Source of the DNA: Brockia lithotrophica
GTDB lineage: Bacteria; Bacillota; Bacilli; Thermicanales; DSM-22653
DNA length: 64,000 nucleotides
Direction of reading: 5' to 3'
Assembly: GCA_003050565.1 (NCBI GenBank)
Contig: PEBW01000002.1
Span: forward strand, 1-64,000
Shown here piece after piece: positions 31 through 11,354 of the stretch. The notes below the pieces were generated by a model, which worked only from the letters and a program-made list of their open reading frames with translations, was not told the origin of the DNA and did no database searches. The stretch's first letter is position 1; each line of letters begins with the position of its first letter. A program made the translations under genes and the position numbers.

Positions 31-1118
31 GTTTCAATCCCTCATAGGTAGGCTGCGAACCTGTTAAAAGATCGCAAAATCTTATAACTATTTGCAAATT
101 TCAATCCCTCATAGGTAGGCTGCGAACGGTAGGCAGCGAGGATCATCGTATCTTCCCATTCCTGTTTCAATCCCTCATAGGTAGGCTGCGAACCAAAAGC
201 TTCTTCAGGACGCATCACAGGGCCAATTGTGTTTCAATCCCTCATAGGTAGGCTGCGAACCCTGTCACAACTCATCAGAACCGCATTTATCGCCCGTTTC
301 AATCCCTCATAGGTAGGCTGCGAACGCCCGCCCTGGCACGATGATGATGATCCATGAGCCGGTTTCAATCCCTCATAGGTAGGCTGCGAACTTCATCGCC
401 ATCGCGAAGCGGATTTTTTAGATTTGGGTTTCAATCCCTCATAGGTAGGCTGCGAACAATATACGCTTTATTGATTAGTAATTTATCACCGCGTTTCAAT
501 CCCTCATAGGTAGGCTGCGAACCGCCATCGCCTGCGGGACGCCCTTCTCCCAGTCCTCGTTTCAATCCCTCATAGGTAGGCTGCGAACTCGTTTTATGCG
601 CGAGGTGTAGACCTTCGCCGAGCAGGTTTCAATCCCTCATAGGTAGGCTGCGAACCCCTAGTATAAAAATTTGCCAGTCTTGCAATTCGATGTTTCAATC
701 CCTCATAGGTAGGCTGCGAACCAGCAATATACCCTTCAATATCTTCAATCATTTCAATGTTTCAATCCCTCATAGGTAGGCTGCGAACTGCCGAGCATAT
801 CTCCATGTCCTTGCCTCAGCATTTGTTTCAATCCCTCATAGGTAGGCTGCGAACTAAACGAGACGAATTTAAGTCATAATTCAAAAGCCGGTTTCAATCC
901 CTCATAGGTAGGCTGCGAACTCGATCGTGTTGAAGGTGTTTCTGTACAAATAGCGGGTTTCAATCCCTCATAGGTAGGCTGCGAACCTCTGTCCTACGTC
1001 GCCGGCGTGCTGCGTTACTATATGTTTCAATCCCTCATAGGTAGGCTGCGAACCAGCCCTCCCCCATCCTTCGCTCGCTTCGCTCGCTGTTTCAATCCCT
1101 CATAGGTAGGCTGCGAAC
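31..1118 (-). CRISPR. CRISPR array 1, 17 repeats and 16 spacers
   Basis: Seventeen copies of a 30-bp repeat, plus-strand form GTTTCAATCC...GCTGCGAAC, start at 31, 98, 164, 231, 296, 362, 428, 493, 559, 626, 692, 759, 825, 891, 957, 1024 and 1089. Spacers are 35-37 bp. The copy at 98 differs in its first base (A for G); the others look identical. On the minus strand the repeat ends in ATTGAAAC, the usual 8-nt 5' handle of type I-B and III crRNAs, so transcription is probably leftward. The 30 bases before 31 look like part of another spacer, so the array likely runs off the left edge. No cas gene is visible nearby. Confidence 0.97.
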
Positions 1119-1170
1119 ACGTTTGGCGCAACAAGCGCGAGAAGCTGGATTCCCGGCAATTGTTAAAGAG

Positions 1171-1527
1171 TCATAATTTGTTAATTAATAAAGCGAGAGA
1201 CATAAGATTTCGTACATCTTCGCCATCAGCTTCAACTAAGGTCTGTTCACCATCATCCCATGTTATCAAAAACATAGCTTTAGTCTTTTTTGCTGTAAGG
1301 CCAAATAAAAGCCCTGCAGGACCAAGAATAGCAGACCCGACCAGACCTCTTATCACAGCCCCGCCAGCGGATAATTGATCCGAAGAATCGATTTTTTCAA
1401 TCTTGGCCACATGCTGTGTGACGTCCTCCGGTCGGCTAAACCATCCAAGATCACGCATTAATGTTTTCCCATCAAAACAGAAGAATTGTTTATTTTCTGC
1501 ATACTTCCCAGCGACAATCAAAATCAT
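1171..1527 (-). CDS. Uncharacterised 118-aa protein in CRISPR-flanked cassette
   Basis: I do not recognise this gene. The 118-aa product has a polar N-terminal half and a Gly/Ala-rich hydrophobic stretch at about residues 54-78 (GGAVIRGLVGSAILGPAGLL core). It ends in a beta-rich segment that reads like the PH-like fold of small phage and plasmid proteins; that likeness is an impression, not a match. A GGAGGG ribosome-binding site lies 8-9 nt before the ATG. It follows the ribbon-helix-helix gene by 33 bp in the same direction, so the two are probably co-transcribed. The DNA is much more AT-rich than the chromosome to the right, which suggests acquisition by transfer. Confidence 0.75.
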   Translation of the reverse strand: MILIVAGKYAENKQFFCFDGKTLMRDLGWFSRPEDVTQHVAKIEKIDSSDQLSAGGAVIRGLVGSAILGPAGLLFGLTAKKTKAMFLITWDDGEQTLVEADGEDVRNLMSLALLINKL

Positions 1528-1560
1528 ATTTGACCACCCTCCAATTCCTAGTCCTCTTTT

Positions 1561-1731
1561 TCAGTCATCTGCTTGGGATTTTTTATTCGTTATTAGTTCT
1601 TTTTCCAAAATTTGTGTTACTATTGAGTTTATCGAGATCCTGCGTTCGAAAGACATTTTTCTTAGTATCTCATGTAGCTCTCGCGGTATTGTGATCGTAG
1701 TGCGTACGTAATCATTTCTTGTTTGCGACAT
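1561..1731 (-). CDS. Small ribbon-helix-helix (CopG/Arc-like) DNA-binding protein
   Basis: This 56-aa ORF starts MSQTRNDYVRTTITIPRELH. That is a basic N-terminus, a short strand (VRTTITIP) and a first helix, followed by a turn and a second helix (ISINSIVTQILEKEL), the layout of ribbon-helix-helix repressors and antitoxins. The strand would insert in the DNA major groove as a dimer. A strong AAAGGAG site lies 8 nt before the ATG. It precedes the 118-aa gene by 33 bp. Such proteins usually repress their own operon or act as an antitoxin; which applies here cannot be told, and the partner does not resemble a known toxin. Confidence 0.75.
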   Translation of the reverse strand: MSQTRNDYVRTTITIPRELHEILRKMSFERRISINSIVTQILEKELITNKKSQADD

Positions 1732-1936
1732 ATGCATCGCTCCTTTTTTCTAAACGTGTAAGCATAAATGAAGTTTGAAGACTAGAAACAAACGATGATA
1801 TAGATAGCACGAATGATACGACAGAAATAAAAAAGCTAAGATAATGTAGCATGACAATTACACCTCATATATTTAGTCTTGCAAATACTTTAGGACATCA
1901 GCAGGTACAGCTATTCCTTCACGATCCCTGACAAAA
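1732..1936. other. AT-rich gap between accessory cassette and CRISPR array 2
   Basis: About 200 bp of AT-rich DNA with no complete gene. On the minus strand, 1873-1933 reads as a short open tail, VRDREGIAVPADVLKYLQD then stop. It has no start codon before the CRISPR repeat closes the frame. It resembles the C-terminus of a truncated small protein but I cannot name it. The promoter for the ribbon-helix-helix gene must lie here or further right; no convincing -35/-10 pair is visible. Confidence 0.4.
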
Positions 1937-3761
1937 GTTTCAATCCCTCATAGGTAGGCTGCGAACCGTCACCCGGAGCACACAGTTGTACTCCGGGAAG
2001 CCGGTTTCAATCCCTCATAGGTAGGCTGCGAACTTAAAATTTTTGTAAAAAAAGATCTTCAATATACGTGTTTCAATCCCTCATAGGTAGGCTGCGAACT
2101 GTTCTCAGGAATTTACGATGTAGAAACAATAACAAGTTTCAATCCCTCATAGGTAGGCTGCGAACCAGAAATAGCAAGGAAGATAAAGCTTGAAGTCAAT
2201 GTTTCAATCCCTCATAGGTAGGCTGCGAACCGGACCACCCGACCGGTTGTCTGCATCGTGTCCTCCGTTTCAATCCCTCATAGGTAGGCTGCGAACCACC
2301 TCTCCGGCCGCTGCGGCGTAGGCTTGAACGAGTTTCAATCCCTCATAGGTAGGCTGCGAACCCATATAAGCAAAACCACCTATCACCGGTAGAGGCCGTG
2401 TTTCAATCCCTCATAGGTAGGCTGCGAACCAAGACAACAAGCCATGCTTGTCTGTCCGCACGTAGTTTCAATCCCTCATAGGTAGGCTGCGAACGAGATG
2501 AGCCTGCGCAATACCGTCTTGAGCGCCAGTTTCAATCCCTCATAGGTAGGCTGCGAACCGCGTGGCTCATCCTCCAGGAGACCCGCGACAAGAAGTTTCA
2601 ATCCCTCATAGGTAGGCTGCGAACAGCACCGCTCGTAACCGGTGACGGCGAGGTAGTGCGTTTCAATCCCTCATAGGTAGGCTGCGAACGCACTCACGGC
2701 CAGACGGGAACCCGTCTCTATTACGTCGTTTCAATCCCTCATAGGTAGGCTGCGAACGCCTGAGCGGGCACCGGCTCCGGCCCGTCAGGGCCCACCAACG
2801 TTTCAATCCCTCATAGGTAGGCTGCGAACGGCGTACCTTGACGATCAGTTTTGGGCATATGCTCAGTTTCAATCCCTCATAGGTAGGCTGCGAACTCGCA
2901 CCTACTAGATCATCTACCCTCTGTATCCTCAAGTTTCAATCCCTCATAGGTAGGCTGCGAACCCGGGACGATGCCGAGTTTGCGACCACGATCAAGACAT
3001 GTTTCAATCCCTCATAGGTAGGCTGCGAACATATCTCCCTTTTTAAGTTCAGGCATCTTTTCAAAGTTTCAATCCCTCATAGGTAGGCTGCGAACGCGCT
3101 ACGCCAACGACGCCGGTTGCTATCCTCCCCGGTGTTTCAATCCCTCATAGGTAGGCTGCGAACTTTTTGGCAAACTTATATTTTTAACTTTTTTTGGCCT
3201 GTTTCAATCCCTCATAGGTAGGCTGCGAACCCAAAAGCAGGAAGGATGTAATTTTTGATGTATCGCGTTTCAATCCCTCATAGGTAGGCTGCGAACCAGA
3301 CGAGGCCGCGGCAATTGAAACATTACGTGCAGGTTTCAATCCCTCATAGGTAGGCTGCGAACAAAATCATGATTGGATTTGAACGTATGCGCGACATTGG
3401 TTTCAATCCCTCATAGGTAGGCTGCGAACACCCTTCTCTGAGCAACGACTTCGACTACGTCACGGTGTTTCAATCCCTCATAGGTAGGCTGCGAACGAGC
3501 GGGCCCTGGCCGAGTTCAACGCCCGCAAAGCCGTTTCAATCCCTCATAGGTAGGCTGCGAACTTCGATCTCACTTTCGCACCAGGCGCACTTGAGCGCGT
3601 TTCAATCCCTCATAGGTAGGCTGCGAACCCGCTCCTGCCAGTGCATGTGCACGTTGAAATAGGGTTTCAATCCCTCATAGGTAGGCTGCGAACCCGGGAC
3701 GATGCCGAGTTTGCGACCACGATCAAGACATGTTTCAATCCCTCATAGGTAGGCTGCGAAC
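1937..3761 (-). CRISPR. CRISPR array 2, 28 repeats and 27 spacers
   Basis: Twenty-eight copies of the same 30-bp repeat as array 1, starting at 1937 and ending with the copy at 3732-3761. All copies look identical, including both terminal ones. Spacers are 34-42 bp (42 bp at 2758-2799). The spacers at 2963-3000 and 3694-3731 are identical over 38 bp. Repeat polarity implies leftward transcription, which puts any leader to the right of 3761; that flank is not AT-rich. The absence of a degenerate repeat at the left end fits a once-continuous array split by the cassette at 1119-1936. Confidence 0.97.
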
Positions 3762-4957
3762 CAAAGAACAAAGGAATCCTCAGGGCGCTCCGTTCCTTTA
3801 CCGCGGGAAAATCCCCGGAGTCGCATTCCCTTCTGCGCCCTACCTACCTACAGCATACCAGGTTTTCCTCCCGAAAACAAGATGTCGTCGATCCCCCAAG
3901 TTCTTTGCACGATCGGAGATCGACGACATCCCCCATCCAATAGTACTACAAAGCATAGACCGAAAGGGGAGGGCGTCCCGCCATTGGGTGAAGTCTTACC
4001 GTCTGCGTCTCGCGTGTTACATCGGTCGGCTTTGCCCCATTCGGAACCTTGCCGCCTTCGGCATCCGTCAAAAAACGCTTCGCTCGTCCTTCGTCCTTGT
4101 CTCTGCTTTCGCCGGTCGATTCCAAGACATAAGGGCGAATCACCTTCGCCGGCGCATGCTCGCACTCCTCCTTCTGAGACATTATGACACGCTGTTTATG
4201 TAATGCAGACCTAGCTCTCATGGCTTTCATGCTTGAGGGGCTACACCATATCATCAAGGTGTTCGAGAGGCCTCTGCATCGCTCTCGATCTATCCCTGGA
4301 ACGTTCCGACTCGAAACACAGCCAGATTGAGACGCAAGGGGATTGGGGTAGTTGTGCTGTACGCTGGCGGTGCTTCCCAAAACCTTCAATCGGGCCAGCG
4401 CCTCACGCACCCGCAGAAGTGGGCAGATTGTCCGCAAGCAGTATCAATCTCATGTCCGTCGCCACCGGCTGGCGAGGCCGAGCATCCAAAGTACGACCGG
4501 TCCGATGTATGCGTGGTTAGACATAAAGAATGACATACTAATTTTTTGATTAGACTCAAAATAAAAAACACTAAAAAAGAATTAGCGAGTGCAATGCCTC
4601 TAGTTAACATAAAACACTCCAAATAACACTAATATTCTGCATGAATAAAAACTAAGTGATTACAACAAAATTAAATACAATATAATGCTATTATCCTCAT
4701 CTCTTATTCCCCGATCAAGGCACGGTGGCGAGGGACATTCACCGTATGGTACCGAATACCCACTCTTTCGTGTGTAGTCGAGCTTACACGGATCGAAAGG
4801 ATCCCCTCTTCATGCGTATCCGGACGTTTGATGGAAACCACAACTCAATAATACCCTGTGAGTTTTTGTATACCAACCTAATTGATTACAAGTATTAAAT
4901 ATATAATCTATAAACGCCAATAAAAAACTAATACCTTCTCCGTATACCCTCCATCAT
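3762..4957. other. 1.2-kb region without a recognisable gene, AT-rich at its right end
   Basis: No frame here looks coding: short frames on both strands have unstructured, Arg/Ser/Pro-rich translations and no ribosome-binding site. The left part (3762-4500) has mixed composition and could be decayed sequence. From about 4530 to 4930 the DNA is strongly AT-rich, unlike the flanking genes. The only structures seen are a 7-bp hairpin (AAAGGAA/TTCCTTT, 3770-3799) directly beside CRISPR array 2 and the perfect inverted repeat at 3881-3930. If the arrays are transcribed leftward, the CRISPR leader should be inside the first 200 bp. Confidence 0.5.
3881..3930. repeat. Perfect 13-bp inverted repeat with 24-bp spacer
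   Basis: GATGTCGTCGATC at 3881-3893 is matched by its exact reverse complement GATCGACGACATC at 3918-3930. Both arms are followed by the same CCCC(C)A run on the plus strand. It lies about 120 bp from the presumed leader end of CRISPR array 2. There is no T-tract, so it is not an intrinsic terminator. It may be a protein-binding site, a structured RNA or an element remnant. Confidence 0.6.
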
Positions 4958-8984: not shown

Positions 8985-11354
8985 CTACCCCCCTTGGTAT
9001 CGTGCAACGAACACCTGTCCGGCGGAAAGCCCTCCGTCTCCCGCGGGCAAAACGCGGTGCGTGAAGACTTCGAAGCCCGAAGATTCAAGGGCGAGCTTGA
9101 GCTTCTTTCGCAGCGTCGGATTGTGGAGACAACCTCCGGAGAGGACGACGCGCCGCGTGCGCTCGGGATGCCGCCGCGCATCCCGGACGACGACCTCTTC
9201 CAGGGCGCGCACGAGCGCCGCGTGAAACCTTCCGGCGATCTCCTTGGGCGGTACGCCTCCGGCGAGGTCGCGAAGGATTTCCTCGAGGAGCGGCGCCGGA
9301 TCCAGCAGGAAGCCTGCCGCCTCCTCCCGTACGGCGAGGACGTACGGCGGAAATTCCTCTACGGGGCGGATGAGTTCCGAGAGCACGATGGCCGGTTCGC
9401 CGTCGTAGGCGGCCTCCTCGACGAGCCCGAGGAGGGCGCTCACGGCGTCGAAGAGGCGACCGCAGGTCCCCGCCAGAGGTACACCCCTGCCCCCTGCGGC
9501 GAGAAAGCGGAGGAGGGCCCGGGCGGCCTCTAGCCGCCCCGGGAGGTGGCGGCGGAAGACGTCGTCGGCCCGTTCCGCGCCGAAGAGGCCGTAGAGCATC
9601 CCGAGAAGCGTCCGCCACGGTTCGCGCACGGCGCGATCCCCCCCGGGGAGCGGCGTGTAGCGCAGGTGTGCGATGCGGCGGGCGCGCGCGTAGCCGCCGT
9701 AGAGCACCTCGAACCCCCAGATCGCTCCGTCCGTGCCGTACCCCGTGCCGTCGAGGACGATGCCGTAAACTTCCCCTTCGAGGTGGTGCTCTCCCATCGC
9801 CGCGGCGAGGTGCGCGTGGTGGTGCTGCACGGGGACGATCTGCGCCTCGGGAAAACGCTTCCGGAGATCTTCGGCGAGCCGGCGCGTCGTGAACAGCGGG
9901 TGCATGTCCACGGCGATGCGCGTCAGCCGGATCCCCATCCAGCGGAAGAGGTGTTCAAACTCCCGAAGGTAGTGCTCCTCGACCTCCACGGCGCCCATGT
10001 CGCCGATGTGCGGGCCGACGAAGAGCTGACGGTGGCGTCCGATGGCGAACGTGTTCTTCTCCTCGGAGCCCATCCCGACGATGCCGTGGACGTCCACGTG
10101 CGCGAAGATCGGCTCGGGTACAAAACCGCGGGAGCGTCGAAGGAGGTCCACGTCCTCACCCAGCACGCGGAGCACCGAGTCGTCCAACGGGTGGACGATC
10201 GGACGGTCGTGCAGGAGAAAGGCATCGGCAATTCCCCGCAGGTAGTCGTACGCCTCTTCGTTGCGGTAGAGAATGGGGAGGCCGGAGGGGTTGGCGCTCG
10301 TCATCACGAGGTACGGAGGAGCGCCCTCTTCGAGGAGGAGGTGGTGGAGCGGTGAGTAGGGGAGCATGATCCCCACGGTGGCGAGTCGCGGAGCCACGGA
10401 AGGGGCGAGAGGCGAGTCCGGCCTCTGCCACGCGACCACGATCGGCGCCTCCGCGGACGTAAGCCACGACTCTTCTTCGGAGGACAGTTCCGCCACGCGC
10501 CGCGCGTGTTCGAGGTCGCGCACCATGACGGCGAGAGGCTTCCGCGGCCTGCGCTTGCGCGAGCGCAGACGCTGCACGACATCCTCTCGCGTGGCGTCGC
10601 AGGCGAGGTGAAAGCCCCCGATGCCCTTCACGGCGACGATCTTGCCCTCCCGAAGGAGCGCTTGCGCGCGCAGTACGGGGTCGCCGGAGAGAGGCCGTCC
10701 GTCGGCGTCCGTGAGGGTGAGCGCCGGGCCGCATACGGCGCAGGCGGTGGTTTCGGCGTGGTAGCGGCGATCGGCGGGATCCTCGTACTCGCGGCGGCAG
10801 TCATCGCACAAGGAAAAGAGCCGCATCGCCGTGCGCTCGCGGTCGTACGGGAGAGATTCGATGATCGTGTAGCGCGGCCCGCACTGCGTGCAGCTGATGA
10901 ACGGGTAGCGGTAGCGGCGGTTCGTGGGGTCGCGCATCTCCCGCAGGCAGTCCTCGCAGACGGCCATGTCCACGGGGATCACGAGCTGCGACTCGCCCTC
11001 GGAATCGCTCGGGAGGATGCGGAACCCCATTTCTCCGCGCGGTTCCGCAACTTCCACGTGGTACTCGTAGATGCGCGCCGCGCGCGGCTTTTCCTGCGGG
11101 AGGGCGTCCACGAAGCCGCGGACCGCCTCCGGCACGCCCTCCACGTAGATGAAGACGCCGTCCATGTTGTTTTGGACGCCGCCGAACACGCCGAACCGTT
11201 CGGCAAGGCGGGCGACAAACGGACGAAACCCGACCCCCTGTACGCGCCCGCGGATCGTGATCCGGCGGGCAACTCGCCCCTCCCCCGACCGCCGAGGGAC
11301 GCCTGCGCCTTCCGTTTTTCCTTCGGGCGCGGGAACGCCGCCCTCGTACCTCAC
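8985..11354 (-). CDS. hypF: Carbamoyltransferase HypF
   Basis: A 789-aa enzyme that turns carbamoyl phosphate and ATP into carbamoyl-adenylate and passes the carbamoyl group to HypE. Domains in order are acylphosphatase (GRVQGVGFRPFV), four zinc-finger CxxC pairs (CEDC, CTQC, CDDC, CAVC), a YrdC-like domain (KGIGGFHLACDA) and a C-terminal Kae1-like domain (HHHAHLAA, LDGTGYGTDG, LSGGCLHN). The start is placed at GTG 11354, where GTGA overlaps the hypB stop; an in-frame TTG at 11372 is the alternative. It uses the same carbamoyl phosphate pool as pyrimidine synthesis. Confidence 0.96.
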   Translation of the reverse strand: MRYEGGVPAPEGKTEGAGVPRRSGEGRVARRITIRGRVQGVGFRPFVARLAERFGVFGGVQNNMDGVFIYVEGVPEAVRGFVDALPQEKPRAARIYEYHVEVAEPRGEMGFRILPSDSEGESQLVIPVDMAVCEDCLREMRDPTNRRYRYPFISCTQCGPRYTIIESLPYDRERTAMRLFSLCDDCRREYEDPADRRYHAETTACAVCGPALTLTDADGRPLSGDPVLRAQALLREGKIVAVKGIGGFHLACDATREDVVQRLRSRKRRPRKPLAVMVRDLEHARRVAELSSEEESWLTSAEAPIVVAWQRPDSPLAPSVAPRLATVGIMLPYSPLHHLLLEEGAPPYLVMTSANPSGLPILYRNEEAYDYLRGIADAFLLHDRPIVHPLDDSVLRVLGEDVDLLRRSRGFVPEPIFAHVDVHGIVGMGSEEKNTFAIGRHRQLFVGPHIGDMGAVEVEEHYLREFEHLFRWMGIRLTRIAVDMHPLFTTRRLAEDLRKRFPEAQIVPVQHHHAHLAAAMGEHHLEGEVYGIVLDGTGYGTDGAIWGFEVLYGGYARARRIAHLRYTPLPGGDRAVREPWRTLLGMLYGLFGAERADDVFRRHLPGRLEAARALLRFLAAGGRGVPLAGTCGRLFDAVSALLGLVEEAAYDGEPAIVLSELIRPVEEFPPYVLAVREEAAGFLLDPAPLLEEILRDLAGGVPPKEIAGRFHAALVRALEEVVVRDARRHPERTRRVVLSGGCLHNPTLRKKLKLALESSGFEVFTHRVLPAGDGGLSAGQVFVARYQGG

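Follow-up and report, generated by a model that had tools for sequence, protein, structure and literature searches.

How two blocks of identical CRISPR repeats came to be separated by several hundred nucleotides of unrelated, AT-rich DNA is the question raised by the first few kilobases of the window, i.e., the whole 64,000-nucleotide stretch of Brockia lithotrophica DNA analysed here. Base 1 of the window is base 1 of a contig of 349,603 bases and falls inside a CRISPR array and, thus, the left end of the first block (array 1) has been cut by the assembly. A search of the whole genome located 45 copies of a 30-nt repeat, GTTTCAATCCCTCATAGGTAGGCTGCGAAC, all of them on a single strand and within positions 31-3761 of the window, 44 being identical to one another. 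Seventeen of these repeats lie at 31-1118 and the remaining 28 at 1937-3761 in the same orientation, which bears out the original prediction that both blocks share repeat and polarity. Its claim that the repeats facing the gap are intact also holds, since the copies at 1089-1118 and 1937-1966, which bound the interval, are perfect. Ordinary spacers, of which there are 43, are 34-42 nt long (mean of 36.3 nt), while the interval at 1119-1936 occupies 818 nt in place of a spacer of roughly 36 nt. The main components of the locus are the following.

Positions 31 to 1118, minus strand: array 1, with 17 repeats and 16 spacers, the leader-distal (older) part, its left end missing (from the repeat search and the contig start).
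Positions 1119 to 1936, no strand assigned: 818 nt in one spacer position, 39% G+C, single-copy, read as a foreign insert.
Positions 1937 to 3761, minus strand: array 2, with 28 repeats and 27 spacers, the leader-proximal (younger) part.
Positions 3762 to 4041, minus strand: leader, with an inverted repeat (3881-3896 and 3915-3930), 94% identical to G003:C125:3385-3667 of one relative and with a core in common with another, G004.

Read in the minus direction, the repeat terminates with ATTGAAAC, the usual crRNA handle, and this end implies transcription from right to left, with a leader expected to the right of 3761. The 280 nt past the last repeat are those that recur, at 94% identity, after a terminal repeat in G003, and a shorter leader core, around GATGTCGTCGATCCCC, also follows an array of 149 repeats in G004. 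A search for leader-like sequence at 1119, within the insert and beside array 1 returned none; array 1 as a separate array with a leader of its own was, therefore, rejected. The original prediction had pointed to relatives for an uninterrupted array, and the 149-repeat array of G004, which belongs to the same repeat family, indeed runs without a comparable interruption, although its spacers differ from those of the window; in general, relatives share the repeat family with the window but not the spacers. Moreover, leader-distal repeats are degenerate in G003, whereas the end repeat of array 2 that faces the insert is perfect. Given a single conserved leader that starts at 3762, the lack of one at the insert and an uninterrupted array in G004, the split is best read, from the sequence, as a single array with a single leader that has been interrupted by foreign DNA. 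The original prediction of one invaded array is, thus, supported, and what it had named as speaking against it did not turn up: array 1 has no leader beside it, and the insert is missing from the four family members checked.

The insert has a G+C content of 0.39, versus 0.65 for the window, and is present as a single copy in the genome. The abrupt change to AT-rich DNA described beforehand is real, with G+C dropping from 0.60 (1119-1158) to 0.23 (1159-1198), i.e., at about 1158. The insert encodes three small genes, each preceded by a ribosome-binding site; all of them lie on the minus strand and so share the direction in which the array is transcribed. The earlier description of a two-gene insertion was correct as to a ribbon-helix-helix gene and a second gene but missed the third one, of 46 aa (1712-1852). 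Together with two open frames at the edges, the insert contains the following features.

Positions 1120 to 1176, plus strand: open frame RLAQQAREAGFPAIVKES with its stop, reaching to the left border, possibly what is left of the end of a truncated gene, or in part an old spacer (read from the sequence).
Positions 1171 to 1527, minus strand: gene of 118 aa, phrog_20920 (E 6e-13), ribosome-binding site GGAGG.
Positions 1561 to 1737, minus strand: Arc-like ribbon-helix-helix gene of 58 aa (or 56 aa), phrog_582 (E 3.5e-9), AAGGAG upstream.
Positions 1712 to 1852, minus strand: gene of 46 aa with a hydrophobic N-terminal half, GAGGTG upstream.
Positions 1873 to 1935, minus strand: open frame FVRDREGIAVPADVLKYLQD with its stop, beginning at the right border, possibly the tail of a cut gene (read from the sequence).

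The 118-aa protein aligns through residues 4-103 with positions 7-105 of 115 of the phrog_20920 profile, and shows 36% identity over 106 residues with a protein of Geobacillus phage phiOH2. The phiOH2 gene concerned (355-702, phrog_20920) adjoins the phage lysis genes and shares its strand with the endolysin gene, while the phiOH2 sequence holds no match to the ribbon-helix-helix or the 46-aa gene. Further relatives occur in 51 IMG/VR viral contigs and also in bacterial chromosomes, where, on visual inspection, the neighbours at two loci resemble phage tail genes. No plasmid match was obtained for the 118-aa gene, and a plasmid origin of this gene was rejected on this ground. The predicted structure of the protein has a mean pLDDT of 75, with a poorly predicted glycine-rich middle, and its fold weakly resembles pleckstrin-homology domains (best E 0.025). 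Family profile searches returned no match for the 46-aa gene. An anti-CRISPR operon, in which the ribbon-helix-helix protein would act as Aca, was considered but not adopted, the only Aca2 match being below threshold (E 0.037).

The original prediction had further described the insert as a cassette and had pointed to its ends for terminal repeats or a target duplication. When the outermost 60 nt at either end of the insert were compared with each other, no match in direct or inverted orientation exceeded 5 nt, which leaves neither terminal repeats nor a target duplication, and family profile searches found no transposase or integrase among its three genes. A transposon or insertion sequence was accordingly discarded, for want of terminal inverted repeats, target duplication and transposase, and the notion of a self-contained mobile cassette is not supported either, since the outermost frames moreover end at the repeats as if cut. 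On the left, the plus-strand frame crosses 1119-1156 and reaches its stop at 1174-1176, adjoining the end of the 118-aa gene; on the right, the minus-strand frame runs from the repeat border to a stop just ahead of the 46-aa gene, much as the end of a preceding gene in the operon would. Both outermost frames look like candidate gene tails cut at the repeats, although frames of 18-20 codons are commonly open by chance. Searches with the short edge peptides gave no family or phage match, and degenerate patterns for both tails detected no homologous gene ends. The end of a SPOR-domain endolysin, suggested for the left tail by the look of its 18 residues, is not claimed here. The outermost 38 nt or so at the left (1119-1156) may be an old spacer or already foreign DNA, G+C falling from 0.60 to 0.23 there.

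Judging from these features, the insert looks like a captured piece of a larger phage-like genome rather than a mobile cassette, and the presence of a phage-like fragment within one array is considered probable. Searches for a donor, run with the DNA and with the 118-aa and ribbon-helix-helix proteins alone, retrieved no phage DNA match and nothing close in viral contigs. The closest relatives of the insert have only the 118-aa gene in common with it, at 25-45% identity and with no shared gene neighbourhood, and no conserved neighbourhood emerged across 99 related loci. Similarly, protospacer searches with the other spacers gave no convincing match and, thus, a PAM could not be derived.

An accident of this sort, foreign DNA lodged within an array, is rare, yet it has been described before. 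In Sulfolobus solfataricus, CRISPR locus F contains an 899-bp fragment of a pNOB8-like plasmid between two repeats (PMC4390879), and the same locus also carries a spacer against that plasmid (PMC3025118). Both cases consist of a mobile-element fragment of 0.8-0.9 kb, and not a transposon, placed between two repeats of one array; of the traits that define locus F, foreign DNA and intact border repeats are found here, and a contiguous match to a known donor is not. Locus F, however, is leaderless and belongs to an archaeon that captured DNA of a conjugative plasmid, whereas the present locus belongs to a member of the Bacilli, contains phage-like genes and has a conserved leader.

Three routes would, as far as the sequence goes, produce exact repeat borders, namely recombination, which is favoured, insertion into a single spacer, which is nearly as simple, and acquisition of one giant spacer. 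The best explanation overall, a phage-like piece taken up by recombination into one array, is rated a little below an even chance. According to it, a single array, transcribed leftwards from the leader at 3762, would have taken up, at one spacer position, an 818-nt segment, carrying a small operon (46-aa, ribbon-helix-helix and 118-aa genes), from a phage-like genome not yet sampled. Array and phage would have undergone homologous recombination, the homology at one or both ends being provided by spacer-target matches of about 36 nt. Such an event would exchange the stretch of array between two targeted sites for the corresponding stretch of phage, leaving a spacer at one or both edges. As a route taken by itself, recombination is proposed tentatively, with slightly more reserve; it is favoured because recombination between spacers and phage targets is documented (PMC8616872) and because locus F constitutes a very similar case (PMC4390879, PMC3025118). 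In staphylococci, by the account that PMC8616872 gives of Varble 2019, spacers recombine with their phage targets. As in that account, homology between spacer and target would join phage DNA and CRISPR locus, the match here being putative; the difference is that the staphylococcal CRISPR loci are described as moving in phage particles, while the fragment would stay in the array here. What speaks against recombination is that only one spacer resembles the insert, the older one at 458-492, and that its similarity to positions 1170-1195, where the 118-aa gene ends (21 of 26 nt, as reverse complement; p 0.035 with 200 shuffles), is barely beyond chance; it is at most suggestive and is not relied on. 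No spacer matching either edge of the insert was seen elsewhere.

Rather less likely is that end-joining, or some other non-homologous event, placed a fragment of phage DNA within a single old spacer, in which case the spacer remnants would be the outermost bases of the 818 nt. This would leave intact repeats on both sides without any special machinery, in an array where spacers account for more than half of the length, and the G+C step near 1158 would fit a spacer, or a remnant of one, at the left. Transposition as the source of such an event is contradicted by the absence of target duplication and terminal repeats. Moreover, the edge frames, of about 57-63 nt, exceed the remnants of one spacer if they are real gene tails. 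An interruption inside a spacer position has a precedent in ISC1359 of S. solfataricus, an insertion sequence that inserted into a matching spacer (PMC4390879), although the insert described here has no terminal repeats or transposase.

Improbable, in turn, is the integration by the Cas1-Cas2 machinery of an 818-nt, multi-gene phage fragment in one acquisition event, even though both junctions fall exactly at repeat borders and both edge frames extend up to the border, as would be the case in a single uninterrupted piece. A giant spacer acquired in this way would be something new and, if true, would call into question how strictly spacer length is controlled, the size measurement in acquisition being off by a factor of more than twenty. 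Against it stand the lengths of ordinary spacers, 34-42 nt here and 34-40 nt in a relative, with no second giant among 201. Also, Cas1 was not found in the assembly, though the gene may lie in a gap or have been lost later. The host carries a type I-B effector operon (cas8b, cas7, cas5b, cas3) at about C2:214.9-221.1 kb, beside a Cas6 whose match covers the C-terminal part only (profile positions 110-200 of 200) and whose gene abuts a dUTPase-like frame. Since the contig ends inside the array, the adaptation genes may sit in the unassembled gap. In the assembled region (G000:C2 about 214,900-221,600; L104:9876-16600), the effector genes have no adjoining adaptation genes. The same leader is found among cas1, cas4, cas6 and cas3 genes in G003; there (L049:3356-3667) it is accompanied by one intact and one degenerate repeat between cas6 and cas3, and a second array starts at 9942 (L049), after the effector genes.

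An assembly artefact is judged just as improbable as a giant spacer. A short-read assembler could have joined an unrelated fragment at identical repeats, considering that both junctions lie at identical 30-nt repeats and that the contig breaks inside the same array; however, such a misjoin would still presuppose an actual molecule with the fragment adjoining this repeat on both sides, and none was seen elsewhere in the genome. Least probable of all are two distinct arrays that flank a set of resident genes, an arrangement with which the intact genes and their ribosome-binding sites would agree, but which is at odds with the lack of a leader-like sequence beside array 1, with the perfect end repeat of array 2 in view of the degenerate leader-distal repeats of G003, and with the absence of the insert from relatives.

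The direction of the insert genes has consequences for the older spacers. Since genes and array are oriented alike, RNA starting at the leader would traverse the genes in sense and only then arrive at the older repeats. The array transcript would probably read through the insert; cleavage by Cas6 at the repeats on either side would set free an RNA too large to serve as a guide, while the older spacers (31-1118) would still be made if read-through occurs. Promoter- and terminator-like sites in the region are not above chance. Interrupted arrays are rare, and each of them documents a way in which phage DNA can recombine with immune memory; with genes co-directional with the array, this case can show whether spacers past an insert of 0.8 kb still get processed.

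Minor irregularities are also present among the ordinary units of the array. The sole variant repeat, at 98-127, has A in place of G as its first base. The spacer at 2758-2799, of 42 nt, is the longest of the ordinary spacers, the rest measuring 34-38 nt, and the spacer nearest to the leader (3694-3731) is an exact duplicate of the one located eleven units inward (2963-3000).
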